In this document: one piece after another, positions 56,652-64,000 of the stretch | Numbering within the stretch: position 1 is the first letter of the stretch | Layout of the letters: the number at the start of each line of letters is the position of its first letter | Assembly: GCF_001051995.2 (NCBI RefSeq) | Contig: NZ_CP014646.1 | Coordinates: 1,054,001-1,118,000, forward strand | Source: Thauera humireducens | Lineage (GTDB): Bacteria > Pseudomonadota > Gammaproteobacteria > Burkholderiales > Rhodocyclaceae | Length of the DNA: 64,000 bases | Direction of reading: 5' to 3' | Notes under the pieces: model-generated | Told to the model about the DNA's origin: nothing | The model's database searches: none | What the model saw: only the letters and a program-made list of their open reading frames with translations | Translations under genes and position numbers: made by a program

Positions 56652-57863
56652 TTAGTGTGCAGCCCACTGCACGGTGTCGAGGTCGATGCCGTCCTTGTAC
56701 ATCTCCCACAGGGGCGACAGCTCGCGCAGCTTGCCGATCTTCTTGTGCAGCAGGTCGATGGTGAAGTCGATCTCTTCCTCGGTGGTGAAGCGGCCGATCG
56801 AGAAGCGGATCGAACTGTGCGCCAGTTCGTCGTTGCGGCCCAGCGCGCGCAGCACGTAGGACGGCTCGAGGCTGGCCGAGGTGCAGGCCGAACCGGACGA
56901 CACCGCGATGTCCTTGATCGCCATGATCAGCGACTCGCCTTCGACATAGGCGAAGGAAATGTTGAGGTTGTGCGGCACGCGCTGCTCGAGGTCTCCATTG
57001 ACGTAGGTCGCCTCGATGTCGGTCAGGCCGTTCAGCAGCTTGTCGCGCAGCCTGCGGACGCGCGCATTCTCCTCCGCCATGTCCTCACGCGCCAGGCGGA
57101 AGGCTTCGCCCATGCCGACGATCTGGTGCGTCGCCAGCGTGCCCGAACGCAGGCCGCGCTCGTGGCCGCCACCGTGCATCTGCGCCTCGAGACGAACACG
57201 CGGCTTGCGGCGGACGTAGAGGGCACCGACGCCCTTCGGACCGTAGGTCTTGTGGGCAGAGAAGCTCATCAGGTCGACCTTGAGCTTGTCGAGGTCGATC
57301 TCGACCTTGCCGGTCGCCTGCGCGGCATCGACGTGGAAGATGATGCCCTTCTCGCGGCACAGCTCACCGATCTGGGCGATCGGCTGCACGACGCCGACCT
57401 CGTTGTTCACGAACATCACGGACACGAGGATGGTATCCGGCCGGATGGCCGCCTTCAGCACCTCGAGATCGATCAAGCCGTTTTCCTGGACGTCGAGATA
57501 GGTGGCCTCGAAGCCCTCGCGCTCGAGTTCGCGCACGGTATCGAGGACCGCCTTGTGCTCGGTCTTGACGGTGATGACGTGCTTGCCCTTGCCCTGGTAG
57601 AAATGCGCCGCACCCTTGATGGCGAGGTTGTTCGACTCGGTCGCGCCCGAGGTCCAGATGATCTCCTTGGGGTCGGCGTTGACCAGGGCCGCGACCTGCT
57701 CGCGCGCTTCCTCGACCGCCTGTTCGGCTTCCCAGCCATAGGCGTGCGAACGACTGGCCGGGTTACCGAAATGTTCGGTCAACCACGGGATCATCTTCGC
57801 CGCCACGCGCGGATCAACCGGCGTCGTGGCCGAGTAGTCGAGGTAGATCGGGAACTTCAGCAT
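56652..57863 (-). CDS. iscS: Cysteine desulfurase IscS
   Basis: A PLP enzyme that takes sulfur from cysteine for IscU and for tRNA thiolation. The 403 residues match E. coli IscS (404). Seen are [14 protein letters not shown] at the start, the substrate-side EHKAVLDT near 105, the PLP Lys in [11 protein letters not shown] near 205 and the catalytic Cys loop [14 protein letters not shown] near 322-335. The ATG at 57863 ([11 protein letters not shown]) is chosen. A second desulfurase gene lies directly upstream. Confidence 0.96.
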
Positions 57864-57914
57864 TGCATCTCTCCGCAGAGGGGTTGTGTCTTTTTCATCT
57901 CCTGGCACGGCCGC

Positions 57915-59078
57915 TCAGAGCGCGACCGACGCCAGATTCCTCAAATCCCGCACCACGTGCGACAGGGTGGCGACGAATCGCTCGACCTCTTCCGCCGTGG
58001 TATCGCGTCCCAGGCTCACGCGCACCGCACCGCGTGCCACCGTCGGATCGACACCCATCGCCAGCAGGGTGTGCGAGGGCTCCGGCTGCGCACTCGAACA
58101 CGCCGAGCCGCTCGCGCAGGCGAATCCTGCGCGATCCAGCTTGCCGACCAGCGTCTCGCCGTCGATCGCGTCAAACGCGAAAAATACCGTATTCGGCAGC
58201 CTGATGGCTGCCCGCGAAAACACCACTGCACCCAGCGCCGACAACGCCGCCTCGATGCCGTCGCGCATCACCGAGAGCCGACTCGCCTCCGCCGCCCGAT
58301 GCGCCACCGCGCGTTGGCAGGCAAGGCCGAAGCCGACGATCGCTGCAACGTTCTCGGTGCCCGAGCGCAAGCCGCGCTCCTGCCCTCCGCCCGCAATGAG
58401 CGGCGACAGTTCGACGCGCTTGTCCAGCACCAGGGCGCCTGCGCCGAGCGGACCACCAAGCTTGTGCGCCGACAGCGTCATCGCCTGCACGCCGAGCGCA
58501 CGGAAATCGACCTCGATCTTGCCCAGCGCCTGCACCGCGTCGGTATGCAGCCAGGCACCGGCCTTGCGCGCCTCTCTGGCCAGCGTCGCCACGTCCTGCA
58601 GCACGCCGGTCTCGTTGTTGGCGAGCATCACCGACACCAGCGTCGGACGCGCCTCGAGCACGCGCTGCCAGTCGGCGACGTCGATCCTGCCGTCCGCATC
58701 GACCGCGATCTCGTGCAAGGCCCACCCCGCACGGCGCAGCTGCCTCGCCGGTTCGCGCACACAGGGGTGCTCGATGGCGCTGATCGCCAGCGTGCCAGGC
58801 TTGAGACAGGCTGCCGCCCCTTTCAGGAACAGGTTGTTCGCCTCCGAGCCGCCGCTGGTGAAGACGACCTCGGTCGCATGTGCGCCAACGGCTGCTGCCA
58901 CGCGCGCGCGCGCTTCGTCGATGGCGGCACGAGCCTGGCGCCCATACTCGTGACGGCTGGACGCATTGCCGAAGCGCGCAGGCTGTGCAGCACCCAGCCA
59001 GGGCAGCATCGCGTCGCGCACCTCGGGAGCCAGCGGCGTGGTCGCGTTCCAGTCGAGATAGACCGGGGCAAAACTCAT
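57915..59078 (-). CDS. Second cysteine desulfurase (NifS/IscS family)
   Basis: A 387-residue PLP desulfurase, distinct from IscS but of the same class. It has YLDWNATTPLAPEV at the start, FTSGGSEANNLFLKG near 71-85, LANNETGVLQDVATLA near 150-165, the PLP Lys in LSAHKLGGPLGAG near 203 and a catalytic Cys in GSACSSAQPEPSHTLLAMG near 325. It lies between iscR (8-base gap) and iscS (51-base gap), so it is expressed with the isc operon and presumably under IscR. Whether it feeds IscU or another sulfur acceptor is unknown. Confidence 0.9.
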   Translation of the reverse strand: MSFAPVYLDWNATTPLAPEVRDAMLPWLGAAQPARFGNASSRHEYGRQARAAIDEARARVAAAVGAHATEVVFTSGGSEANNLFLKGAAACLKPGTLAISAIEHPCVREPARQLRRAGWALHEIAVDADGRIDVADWQRVLEARPTLVSVMLANNETGVLQDVATLAREARKAGAWLHTDAVQALGKIEVDFRALGVQAMTLSAHKLGGPLGAGALVLDKRVELSPLIAGGGQERGLRSGTENVAAIVGFGLACQRAVAHRAAEASRLSVMRDGIEAALSALGAVVFSRAAIRLPNTVFFAFDAIDGETLVGKLDRAGFACASGSACSSAQPEPSHTLLAMGVDPTVARGAVRVSLGRDTTAEEVERFVATLSHVVRDLRNLASVAL

Positions 59079-59086
59079 TGCGACCC

Positions 59087-59569
59087 TCAGACTGCGGCGA
59101 TCTCGCGCACCTGCAGCGTGGCGCGACGACGAATGTTCTTCAGCACCGCCATGTCCGCATCCGGTTTCACCTGACGGTCGACCAGTGCCTGCAGCGTCAC
59201 CGAATCGAGGTAGGCATACATGCGCTTGTTGAGGTTCGCCCACAGGTCATGGGTCATGCAGCGGTGCTCGTCGTGACAGTTCTGCTTGCCGCCGCACTGG
59301 GTCGCATCCAGCGGCTCGTCCACCGCGATGATGATGTCGGCGACCGTGATCGCGTCCATGCCGCGCGCCAGGCGGTAACCACCGCCGGGGCCGCGCACGC
59401 TGCTCACCAGCTGATGGCGGCGCAGCTTGCCGAACAACTGCTCGAGATAGGACAACGAGATCCTCTGGCGCTCGGCAATCCCGGCAAGCGTCACCGGTCC
59501 GTCGTCCTGGCGTGCAGCCAGATCGATCATCGCCGTGACGGCGAATCGCCCCTTGGTCGTCAGTCTCAT
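59087..59569 (-). CDS. iscR: Fe-S cluster-sensing regulator IscR
   Basis: A 160-residue Rrf2-family repressor. The winged helix-turn-helix (MRLTTKGRFAVTAMIDLA and ISLSYLEQLFGKLRRHQLV) is followed by the [2Fe-2S] ligands spaced C-x5-C-x5-C in QCGGKQNCHDEHRC, near residues 92-104. The cluster-bound form represses the isc operon. The start at 59569 (MRLTTKGR) is the family start. A good promoter lies about 80 bases upstream. Confidence 0.96.
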   Translation of the reverse strand: MRLTTKGRFAVTAMIDLAARQDDGPVTLAGIAERQRISLSYLEQLFGKLRRHQLVSSVRGPGGGYRLARGMDAITVADIIIAVDEPLDATQCGGKQNCHDEHRCMTHDLWANLNKRMYAYLDSVTLQALVDRQVKPDADMAVLKNIRRRATLQVREIAAV

Positions 59570-61446: not shown

Positions 61447-62259
61447 ATGCATCCCACCCTGAACATCGCCGTCAAGGCCGCCCGTCGCGCCGCGACCGTC
61501 ATCAACCGCGCCTCGACCCAGCTCGACCTGCTCACCGTCCAGAGCAAGTCGCCCAACGATTTCGTCACCGAAGTCGATCGCGCCGCCGAGCAGGCGATCA
61601 TCGAAGTCCTGCGTGACGCCTTTCCGGGGCACGGGATTCTAGCAGAGGAGTCGGGCGAATCCGGCCCGCTCAATGGCCAGGAGAGCGAGTTCAACTGGAT
61701 CATCGATCCGCTCGACGGCACGACCAACTTCATCCACGGTTTTCCGCAGTACGCCATCTCGATCGCCCAGACCAAGAACGGCGCCCTCGAGCATGCGGTG
61801 GTCTACGACCCCTGCACCAACGAGCTGTTCACCGCCTCGCGCGGCAGCGGCGCATTCCTCAACGACCGCCGCATCCGCGTGTCGCGCCGCACCCGCCTCA
61901 ACGATTCGCTGATCGGCACCGGCTTTCCCTTCCGCCAGTTCGACAACGTCGATGCCTATCTCGCGATGTTCAAGGAACTCACGCAGAAGACCGCCGGCAT
62001 CCGTCGCCCGGGCGCAGCCTCGCTCGACCTGGCCTATGTCGCCTGCGGCCGCCTCGACGGCTTCTGGGAAATGGGCCTGTCGCCGTGGGATATGGCAGCC
62101 GGCGTGCTGCTGATCCAGGAAGCGGGCGGGCTCGTGTCCGATCTGTCGGGCGAAGCGGACTTCATGGCCACCGGCAACGTGGTCGCCGGCACGCCGAAGA
62201 TCTTCGGCCAGCTGCTGCCGATCATCCAGGCCTACCGTCCGGCCAACATTCAGGCCTGA
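61447..62259 (+). CDS. suhB: Inositol-1-monophosphatase family protein SuhB
   Basis: A 270-residue Mg-dependent phosphatase that also acts in rRNA antitermination in E. coli. Metal-site motifs are [10 protein letters not shown] (about 40-49), EESGE (about 67-71), [16 protein letters not shown] (about 84-99) and [17 protein letters not shown] (about 214-230). Length and motifs match SuhB (267). Confidence 0.94.
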
Positions 62260-62319: not shown

Positions 62320-63408
62320 TCATCGCGCAGCGCGCCCCGGTTCCACCGCTGCAGGCGCGGTGAGGCGGTCGATCATGGCCCGGATGGCGCGAACCTGTCC
62401 GCCGTCCCGGGTCGCGTACGTCGGCCCGCTGTAGCCCCACCAGTCCCAGCAGCCTTTCGGGTTGTACACCCAGCGCCACGACCCCCACGCCAGTCCGCTG
62501 CGCGCCGCGACCTGCGGGTAGAGCACCACGATACGATTGGTGTCGGCCCATTCGTTATAGCCCGCACGTTCGACGAAGCGCCTGCCGATCTCGCCCTCCC
62601 CCTGACGGCAGCCATGCAGCGCAACGTGGAGCCTGCAGCCGCCCTCGCGGCAGGCCTGCGGAACGTAGGCGTAGCCTTGCGCCGCCATGCTCAGCTCGAT
62701 CGGCGGGACGACGGCGAATTCGCGCTGCTCGAATGCGATCACCTCGCCGCCGGCCCGAGCAACCCGCGGCGCCAAGGGCCCATACAGATGCGCCAGCAAC
62801 GCGCCCGCCGCATCCAGCTCGCCACAGCGGTTGATGAAGGGCGGTGCGGACGTATCGCATGCATTCGCCGCCGGATCCGCGATCGAGATCATCGCGTGAC
62901 CCGCGCCCTCGTGCCGCACGTAGCGCACGGCCTCATCCGCCAGCCGGCGGCGATAGAAGGTGACCAGGCTATCGACCACCGGCCGCTCGACCGTGCGGTC
63001 CGCACTGCCCGAAAGCACCCACACCCGGTCGTCCGCCAGTCCGACCGGATCGTCGATGCGCCCGGCACGTGCCCACGCTTCGATGCGCGCCACCGTGGCG
63101 TCCGCACTGGGCACCCGGTCGGGCGTCCGCGGCGCCATGCAGTCGCCGAGCGCACGCCACATGCTGCCTTCGGCGCAGTCGTAGGGTCCGCCGGCGATCA
63201 CGCCGGCGCCCCTGACCAGGCTCGAGTGCGCCACCTGGAGCTGCACCGCCATGTAAGCCCCCGACGAGACGCCGGAGACGGTCACCGTTGCCGCGTCCGC
63301 CCCCAGCGCTGGCAAGGCTTGCGCCGACACCGTCGTGCCGGACAAGAGGCAGACCATGCCGAGCGCCACATGCTGCAGCCAGCCGCTCACTCCGATTCGA
63401 CGCTTCAT
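62320..63408 (-). CDS. Secreted PHB depolymerase-like esterase
   Basis: A 362-residue alpha/beta hydrolase with a signal peptide (about 1-30, ending TTVSAQA). The nucleophile motif is G-V-S48-S-G in TVSGVSSGAYMAVQLQVAHSS. VWVLSGSADRTV may carry the catalytic Asp, and CRLHVALHGCRQGE near 262-275 resembles the second conserved His-Gly-Cys segment. This layout resembles the periplasmic poly(3-hydroxybutyrate) depolymerase of Rhodospirillum. Storage PHB is cytoplasmic, so an external or periplasmic polyester or oligomer is the likely substrate. The ATG at 63408 is used because it opens the signal peptide. Confidence 0.82.
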   Translation of the reverse strand: MKRRIGVSGWLQHVALGMVCLLSGTTVSAQALPALGADAATVTVSGVSSGAYMAVQLQVAHSSLVRGAGVIAGGPYDCAEGSMWRALGDCMAPRTPDRVPSADATVARIEAWARAGRIDDPVGLADDRVWVLSGSADRTVERPVVDSLVTFYRRRLADEAVRYVRHEGAGHAMISIADPAANACDTSAPPFINRCGELDAAGALLAHLYGPLAPRVARAGGEVIAFEQREFAVVPPIELSMAAQGYAYVPQACREGGCRLHVALHGCRQGEGEIGRRFVERAGYNEWADTNRIVVLYPQVAARSGLAWGSWRWVYNPKGCWDWWGYSGPTYATRDGGQVRAIRAMIDRLTAPAAVEPGRAAR

Positions 63409-63540
63409 CCTCGACTCCAGAACCCGAATTCGTGCACGACAGATGCACAAGCGCGCCTGCATGCGTAAACTCCGCGGGTTTCGACCACGACCGGGCTGGC
63501 CGCCCGACGCAGCCGCCCGCTCCCCGATCAAGAGGTTGCA

Positions 63541-63627
63541 TTGACGCCCCACCCCAAGCCCCACGAACTGAGCGAAGCCGAGATCAGCGCCCACACGCCC
63601 ATGATGCAGCAGCGCTTTCATCAATAA
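63541..63627 (+). pseudogene. mutS: Truncated 5' end of mutS (28 codons)
   Basis: From a TTG at 63541, with AAGAGG 5 bases upstream, the frame reads 28 residues beginning (M)TPHPKPHELSEAEIS and continuing AHTPMMQQ. It then reads RFHQ and meets TAA at 63625. AHTPMMQQ is identical to the conserved start of MutS (E. coli has DAHTPMMQQYLRLK). The sequence after base 63612 has no resemblance to the rest of MutS in any frame. Thus mismatch-repair MutS appears cut within its first 25 codons by a rearrangement, insertion or deletion. The remainder may lie beyond the window or be lost. Confidence 0.75.
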
Positions 63628-63704
63628 TCCTAATCAATCTGCAGCTGACGCTTTACGAAGTTACGCCAATCACTACGCTGGCAGCCTGCAGCGCGAACGG
63701 AGAT

Positions 63705-64000
63705 CTACGCTTGGACGGGTCGAACTAACTCCGGCCCCTGCGCCCGCGGATTTCCCACCGCTCGCCCCACCGGATAGACCTCCATGTCCGCTGACGGATA
63801 TTCGTTCGCCAACTCCCGCACCAGATTCGCGTCCGTGATCTCGGGATCCAGCCAGGCTGCGTAGTCCTTGGGCCGGATGATGACCGGCATTCGATCATGG
63901 ATCGGCCGCATCAGATCGTTCGCAGCAGTTGTAAGAATCGCGAAGGTGAGGACAAATCCCTCTGGCCCTTCCCAGTGCTCGAGAAGACCTCCGAAGCCGA
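63705..64000 (-). CDS. SRAP (HMCES/YedK-type) DNA-protein crosslink shield protein (5' part outside window)
   Basis: The last 97 residues or so of an SOS-response-associated peptidase-fold protein; the frame stays open to the window edge. The sequence reads FGGLLEHWEGPEG, then FAILTTAANDLMRPIHDRMPVII, the conserved SRAP block with the active-site His in IHDRMP, then KDYAAWLD. Family knowledge: SRAP proteins covalently trap abasic sites in single-stranded DNA through an N-terminal Cys, which is not visible here. It faces the mutS fragment across a spacer that is clearly more AT-rich than the rest of the window. Confidence 0.85.
   Translation of the reverse strand, partial: GFGGLLEHWEGPEGFVLTFAILTTAANDLMRPIHDRMPVIIRPKDYAAWLDPEITDANLVRELANEYPSADMEVYPVGRAVGNPRAQGPELVRPVQA

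Follow-up and report, generated by a model that had tools for sequence, protein, structure and literature searches.

A prophage at the 5′ end of mutS in Thauera humireducens and the gene start that it appears to supply

Results

Does a mutS gene that breaks off within its first codons mean that mismatch repair has been lost? The question is raised by a 64,000-nucleotide stretch of Thauera humireducens DNA (the window; positions 1054001–1118000 of a genome that forms one contig of 4,171,754 bp), near the right end of which a frame of 28 residues, MTPHPKPHELSEAEISAHTPMMQQRFHQ, occupies 63541–63627 (+). Read directly from the sequence, it opens with TTG, 5 bases behind a ribosome-site-like AAGAGG (63530–63535, +), and closes with a stop codon at 63625–63627. 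An earlier note had taken this frame for a mutS start cut at about 63612, had named an inserted element as a possible cause, and had warned that the strain would be a mutator if mutS were lost. In another genome of the same genus (G102), identical first codons, preceded by the same two upstream genes, lead into a full mutS; because G102 joins these codons to a complete gene, the frame at 63541 is evidently a genuine mutS start, and a chance match can be set aside. The first upstream gene (61447–62259, +), which we take to encode an inositol monophosphatase-like protein, is also found at the left end of a related element in G048. The second (62320–63408, −; start at 63408 picked by eye), presumably depolymerase-like, is divergent to mutS and 93% identical to its counterpart in G102. 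Farther to the left, two consecutive cysteine-desulfurase-like frames (56652–57908 and 57915–59243), recognised by eye, form part of an isc-like cluster.

A search of the whole genome for the MutS_V domain (PF00488) gave one match, above the cut-off, in a stop-free frame of 887 aa. The corresponding gene of 882 aa lies at genome positions 1184341–1186989 and holds all five MutS domains (I–V), domain I beginning at residue 28. The prophage accounts for the opening 28 codons, contributing MNAAPDKGVKGISPIHQGLTEEAISA plus the His-Thr codons, so that 26 prophage-encoded residues precede His-Thr-Pro as against 17 native ones. Between the integrase gene of this prophage and mutS we found no consensus promoter, nor does the supplied ATG have an evident ribosome site ahead of it. 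When the host flanks of the prophage are rejoined in silico, the result is an in-frame mutS of 873 codons, the same length as in G102, with which it shares its first 60 residues; rejoined flanks likewise remain in frame in G048 and G072. The rest of mutS thus lies past the far end of an inserted element, where the earlier note had suggested looking for it. As far as its sequence can tell, mutS is not lost in this strain, and the fragment at 63541–63627 (host DNA until about 63611, followed by prophage sequence that carries the stop) is the displaced attL remnant of the native start.

The junctions of the element are sharply placed. A 26-bp attL core at 63586–63611 (+) recurs with one mismatch at genome positions 1184413–1184438 (attR, outside the window), the two copies standing 66,827 bp apart. 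The second copy was also recovered by a pattern search of 19 genomes, which put cores at genome positions 1117592 and 1184419, on either side of the element. Within the core, the 14 bp CCCATGATGCAGCA (63598–63611, +; codons P-M-M-Q-Q) are the same in attL and attR. At the core mismatch attL carries the G102 base, and immediately past the core attR carries it; the exchange must therefore fall within CCCATGATGCAGCA. The empty site of G102, 95.9% identical to the left host flank over 606 bp and 91.7% identical to the right one over 3,089 alignment positions, accordingly places the breakpoint in the PMMQQ codons, in agreement with the cut that the earlier note had read from the window.

The element, of which the window holds the left end (63612–64000), runs for 66,827 bp to about genome position 1184425 and is delimited by its att cores and by matches to phage genes. 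Profile matches (PHROGs, Pfam) include large and small terminase subunits, a portal protein and a major head protein; a RecT-like protein, exonucleases and a primosomal protein; and an endolysin-type protein, an antirepressor and an S24-type repressor. With terminase, portal, head, repressor and integrase genes all present, it has the gene set of a temperate tailed prophage. An SRAP-family gene (PF02586, 223 bits; genome positions 1117705–1118457, −) is cut by the window end at 63705–64000, a protein of 2,935 aa matches DarB-like and methyltransferase families, and a thymidylate kinase gene lies at genome positions 1169076–1169810. In the single gene compared, the terminase large subunit has 78% identity with its counterparts in Pseudomonas phages including H66, a group that we take to be F116-like. 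The integrase gene (genome positions 1182871–1184178, −; domains Arm-DNA-bind_3 and Phage_integrase) is divergent to mutS, from whose ATG its own start is 162 bp away. Among named phages the nearest integrases are those of Burkholderia phage KS9 (58.0% identity, with 96% of the query covered) and Acidovorax phage Aval (56.9%); KS9 integrates at the end of a GTP cyclohydrolase II gene. Of 51 prophage frames called by our script, which missed at least the SRAP and thymidylate kinase genes, 17 match the G048 element and one, the integrase, matches the G072 element; unlike phages thus evidently have an integration module in common. We identified no excisionase gene in the prophage.

Paired cores were seen in other genomes as well. 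A second core lies on the same contig at a distance of 66,827 bp here, 62,150 bp in G048, 63,418 bp in G072 and 22,760 bp in G132, and G302 has two perfect cores on two contigs. Five genomes with no integrase upstream of mutS (G101, G102, G106, G109 and G124) have one perfect core each. The other nine element-bearing genomes, most of them drafts and one (G100) with a remnant element, gave no clear second core. The left-end frames of the G048 and G072 elements are, like ours, mutS starts that soon reach a stop, and that of G048 resembles the uninterrupted start of G124.

In the left arm, an arm-type-like site, AAGTTACGCC (63658–63667, +), starts at base 47, and a similar site starts at base 47 in G048 and G072, hence in 3/3 elements. 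In alignment, GGCGTA-type repeats adjoin the integrase, two direct and one inverted; together with the base-47 site they are presumably integrase arm sites. Counts of 9-mers common to both arms (0 in our element, 3 in G048, 2 in G072) were no better than those of shuffled arms (maxima of 5, 4 and 5). In the consensus of the L091-type alignment, the interval that separates the arm-like repeats from the supplied start contains a conserved stretch of tandem character, AAGTGTaG..a.GTtT.Ga...GtGT.G, which might, at a guess, hold excisionase sites.

Next to mutS is where the near relatives of this integrase are commonly found. Among 101 family-level genomes, full-length integrases of at least 62% identity occur in three (our own, G048 and G072), and G100 has a 51-residue piece; all four adjoin mutS, with supplied starts that differ. 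A search of 399 order-level genomes matched 14 (E of 1e-30 or better), and nine of the 15 new loci (L056–L070) adjoin mutS; of more distant integrases, 0/16 lie beside it, with flanks of up to 1.5 kb inspected. Of 89 relatives in named genomes, 80 loci were compared: a mutS start is near the integrase in 58/80, usually at 200–260 bp, and is not beside it in 22/80, five of these 22 having less than 350 bp of upstream sequence. Viral contigs gave mutS adjacency in 22/80; a good many of the remaining ones start with the integrase. At class level, 8/369 genomes matched, our own included, and in the other seven mutS adjoins the integrase throughout. Within the genus, three of 19 mutS loci have an integrase upstream (our own, G048 and G122), and the tree shows the G122 integrase as identical with one from a Thauera MAG.

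Mapped onto a 99-row tree of the integrases, adjacency to mutS changes 10 times against a shuffled mean of 24.6, a clustered distribution that does not amount to one clade; other relatives lie near ribA-, maf- and deoR-type-like genes and tRNA-Gly, names that were recognised by eye. In three records, named Burkholderia, Pseudothauera and Pigmentiphaga (L099, L100 and L138), the integrases match exactly or almost so, as do the supplied mutS starts, a likeness that suggests recent spread between families.

Two genomes hint at later fates of such insertions. In G100 recognisable sequence amounts to the N-terminal 50 residues of the integrase, the region of attR, and mutS, whose frame is open over 914 codons from stop to stop; no second att core was found there, and the gene that usually precedes mutS lies about 19 kb off. 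The start brought by a decayed element seems to have become the permanent mutS start of this genome. Among the frames in the intervening 19 kb or so (L261, L265), some resemble by eye a permease and a pair of the iron-sulfur/NrfD type. The G132 element has an element-type mutS start and an integrase fragment at its left end as well, which suggests that the mutS start had already been replaced once when another element went in, and that elements are stacked there. Over G132:C3:216001–246000 (L266, L267), element-type mutS starts and integrase sequence are seen at both ends of a 22.8-kb stretch.

We then compared the supplied starts themselves. Of 94 extracted regions, 91 were within size limits and 74 remained without near-copies; setting aside six rows of a distant clade left 68 non-redundant rows of the main integrase clade. 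A stop codon falls in the last 15 codons before the His codon in 2/68 rows in the mutS frame as against 33/68 and 36/68 in the other forward frames. In 29 related pairs, codons with a single difference were synonymous in 53 cases and nonsynonymous in 123, and substitutions by codon position numbered 125, 111 and 146, which lends slight support to selection on the supplied residues. The frame is preserved and the residues far less so, a pattern that fits a variable tail ahead of MutS domain I.

In the main integrase clade, these codons probably also contain an IHF-like site. Measured against the IHF consensus WATCAANNNNTTR (PMC10380432), the sequence lying exactly 33 bp ahead of the His codon shows no mismatch in 12/68 rows, at most one in 30/68 and at most two in 42/68; the remaining 26/68 have more than two. 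No offset did better than 2/68 in any of 300 codon shuffles, and 26 native mutS starts have at least three mismatches at −33. A second position, −64, carries the site in 17/68. Under progressively stricter thinning, 25/59, 18/46 and 12/37 rows retained the site at −33. The motif had been spotted by eye before it was tested. Main-clade members adjoining mutS that were found later have at most one mismatch at −33 in 4/4 cases, two of the four being alike and all of them nearest to Massilia- or Janthinobacterium-type elements and close to a single subclade. None of seven class-level loci outside the order has the site at −33; their best match (at most two mismatches, no control run) lies at −54/−55 in 5/7. 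Our own prophage has a weak version with two mismatches, in which the consensus CA and TT are kept.

Codon choice at this site points to selection on the DNA. At codon −8, CTN or GTN codons end in TT in 31/34 cases as against 24/72 elsewhere in the last 20 codons (p = 1.5e-8); at codon −11, Asn or Asp is written NAT in 29/33 as against 61/136 (p = 4.8e-6); and at codon −10, Gln is CAA in 38/50 as against 45/77, with p reaching only 0.056; all of these values are too small, since the rows are related. A recurring N-Q-x-L/V in the supplied starts was considered as a protein motif and rejected, codon choice indicating a constraint at the DNA level. We found no report of an IHF site within supplied mutS codons in the literature on mutS and IHF binding sites, and the main text of PMC5296598 does not mention IHF. 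Should the site be confirmed, one stretch of DNA would be selected both as coding sequence and as recombination site.

Discussion

We conclude, with a probability of roughly 0.94, that a prophage sits in mutS and resupplies the start of the gene, the fragment in the window being a leftover and the intact mutS lying at the far edge of the element. A temperate prophage was evidently integrated by its own tyrosine integrase into the PMMQQ codons of mutS. Integration stranded the host promoter and the first codons as a dead 28-codon remnant at attL and placed a prophage-borne start, with its upstream DNA, before the remaining host codons at attR. From this prophage DNA the lysogen would then express a MutS close to normal, and the native gene would return in frame upon excision. 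Transcription of mutS presumably starts in prophage DNA, the protein presumably has normal activity, and the prophage is presumably still able to excise. This removes a false alarm, a seemingly broken repair gene being whole. It also shows how an integrase can exploit the most conserved codons of a gene and swap no more than the variable tail that precedes MutS domain I.

Going further, the state of the prophage might alter mutS expression, and with it the mutation rate, through a promoter swap or through a frameshift on excision. The DNA upstream of mutS does differ between the prophage-in and prophage-out states, and there are precedents in Vibrio splendidus 12B01, where excision leaves a 2-bp scar (a deletion) and hypermutation follows (PMC5296598), and in the SpyCI elements, which act in this manner on mutL (PMC3430984). 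The frameshift form is not predicted here, in G048 or in G072, as the rejoined flanks stay in frame, and we regard such a switch as unlikely overall. A slightly bolder and slightly less likely proposal is that lysogen mutS is transcribed inside DNA bound by integrase, IHF and excisionase, its supplied codons doubling, in the main integrase clade, as an IHF-binding site of the phage integration arm, so that the state of recombination would set the level of mismatch repair and the mutation rate.

Inactivation of mutS, with the mutator strain that the earlier note had feared, is very improbable. The native start is indeed severed after 24 mutS codons, and the new one has no visible consensus promoter; against this, attR holds an open gene of 882 codons with all five domains, element-supplied starts in relatives preserve the mutS frame, and V. 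splendidus mutS is reported to be functional from such a start (PMC5296598). An assembly error, or a conserved separate gene of 28 codons, can practically be dismissed, given that the contig is single and bears paired att cores, that other genomes have related elements at these codons, and that the full mutS of G102 opens with them too.

Comparison with known elements

Insertion of phage-like DNA into the start of a mismatch-repair gene has been described from several sides. The SpyCI islands likewise are phage-like elements in the 5′ end of such a gene, mutL (PMC3430984, PMC4689407). SpyCI integration blocks mutL transcription (PMC3430984), whereas our prophage supplies a mutS start and leaves mutS an open gene. 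The dusA islands and SXT in prfC concern other target genes and other elements (PMC8409611).

Closer by are the mutS-specific islands reported in 2008, GI8c of Burkholderia pseudomallei MSHR305, termed a putative prophage, and Bt-GI4 of B. thailandensis E264 (PMC2612704). Their recombination in mutS involves ACGCCGATGATGCAG, a repeat of 15 bp overlapping the core of our prophage; we liken them by description only, and a replaced start is not described in the available part of that report (PMC2612704).

The closest match is the class of elements that Chu et al. (2017) described at the mutS HTPMMQQ codons of hundreds of Beta- and Gammaproteobacteria, some of them prophages, which bring a new mutS start and promoter and for which excision data are given (PMC5296598). 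Our prophage shares with them the same codons, an integrase beside mutS, a supplied start with its upstream region, and the host start at the other end; the insertion lies in the HTPMMQQ codons, a host-derived start is left behind, and the supplied start is in frame (PMC5296598). As to the integrase, ours, which may be related to theirs, is a tyrosine integrase 162 bp from mutS, and its own clade is found beside mutS. Unlike in V. splendidus 12B01, the rejoined frame is here predicted to be intact, as in Escherichia coli 536, Pseudomonas putida F1 and B. multivorans CF2, where excision is scarless (PMC5296598). By these features the element evidently belongs to the already described class of mutS-integrated elements, to which it adds a well-delimited prophage.
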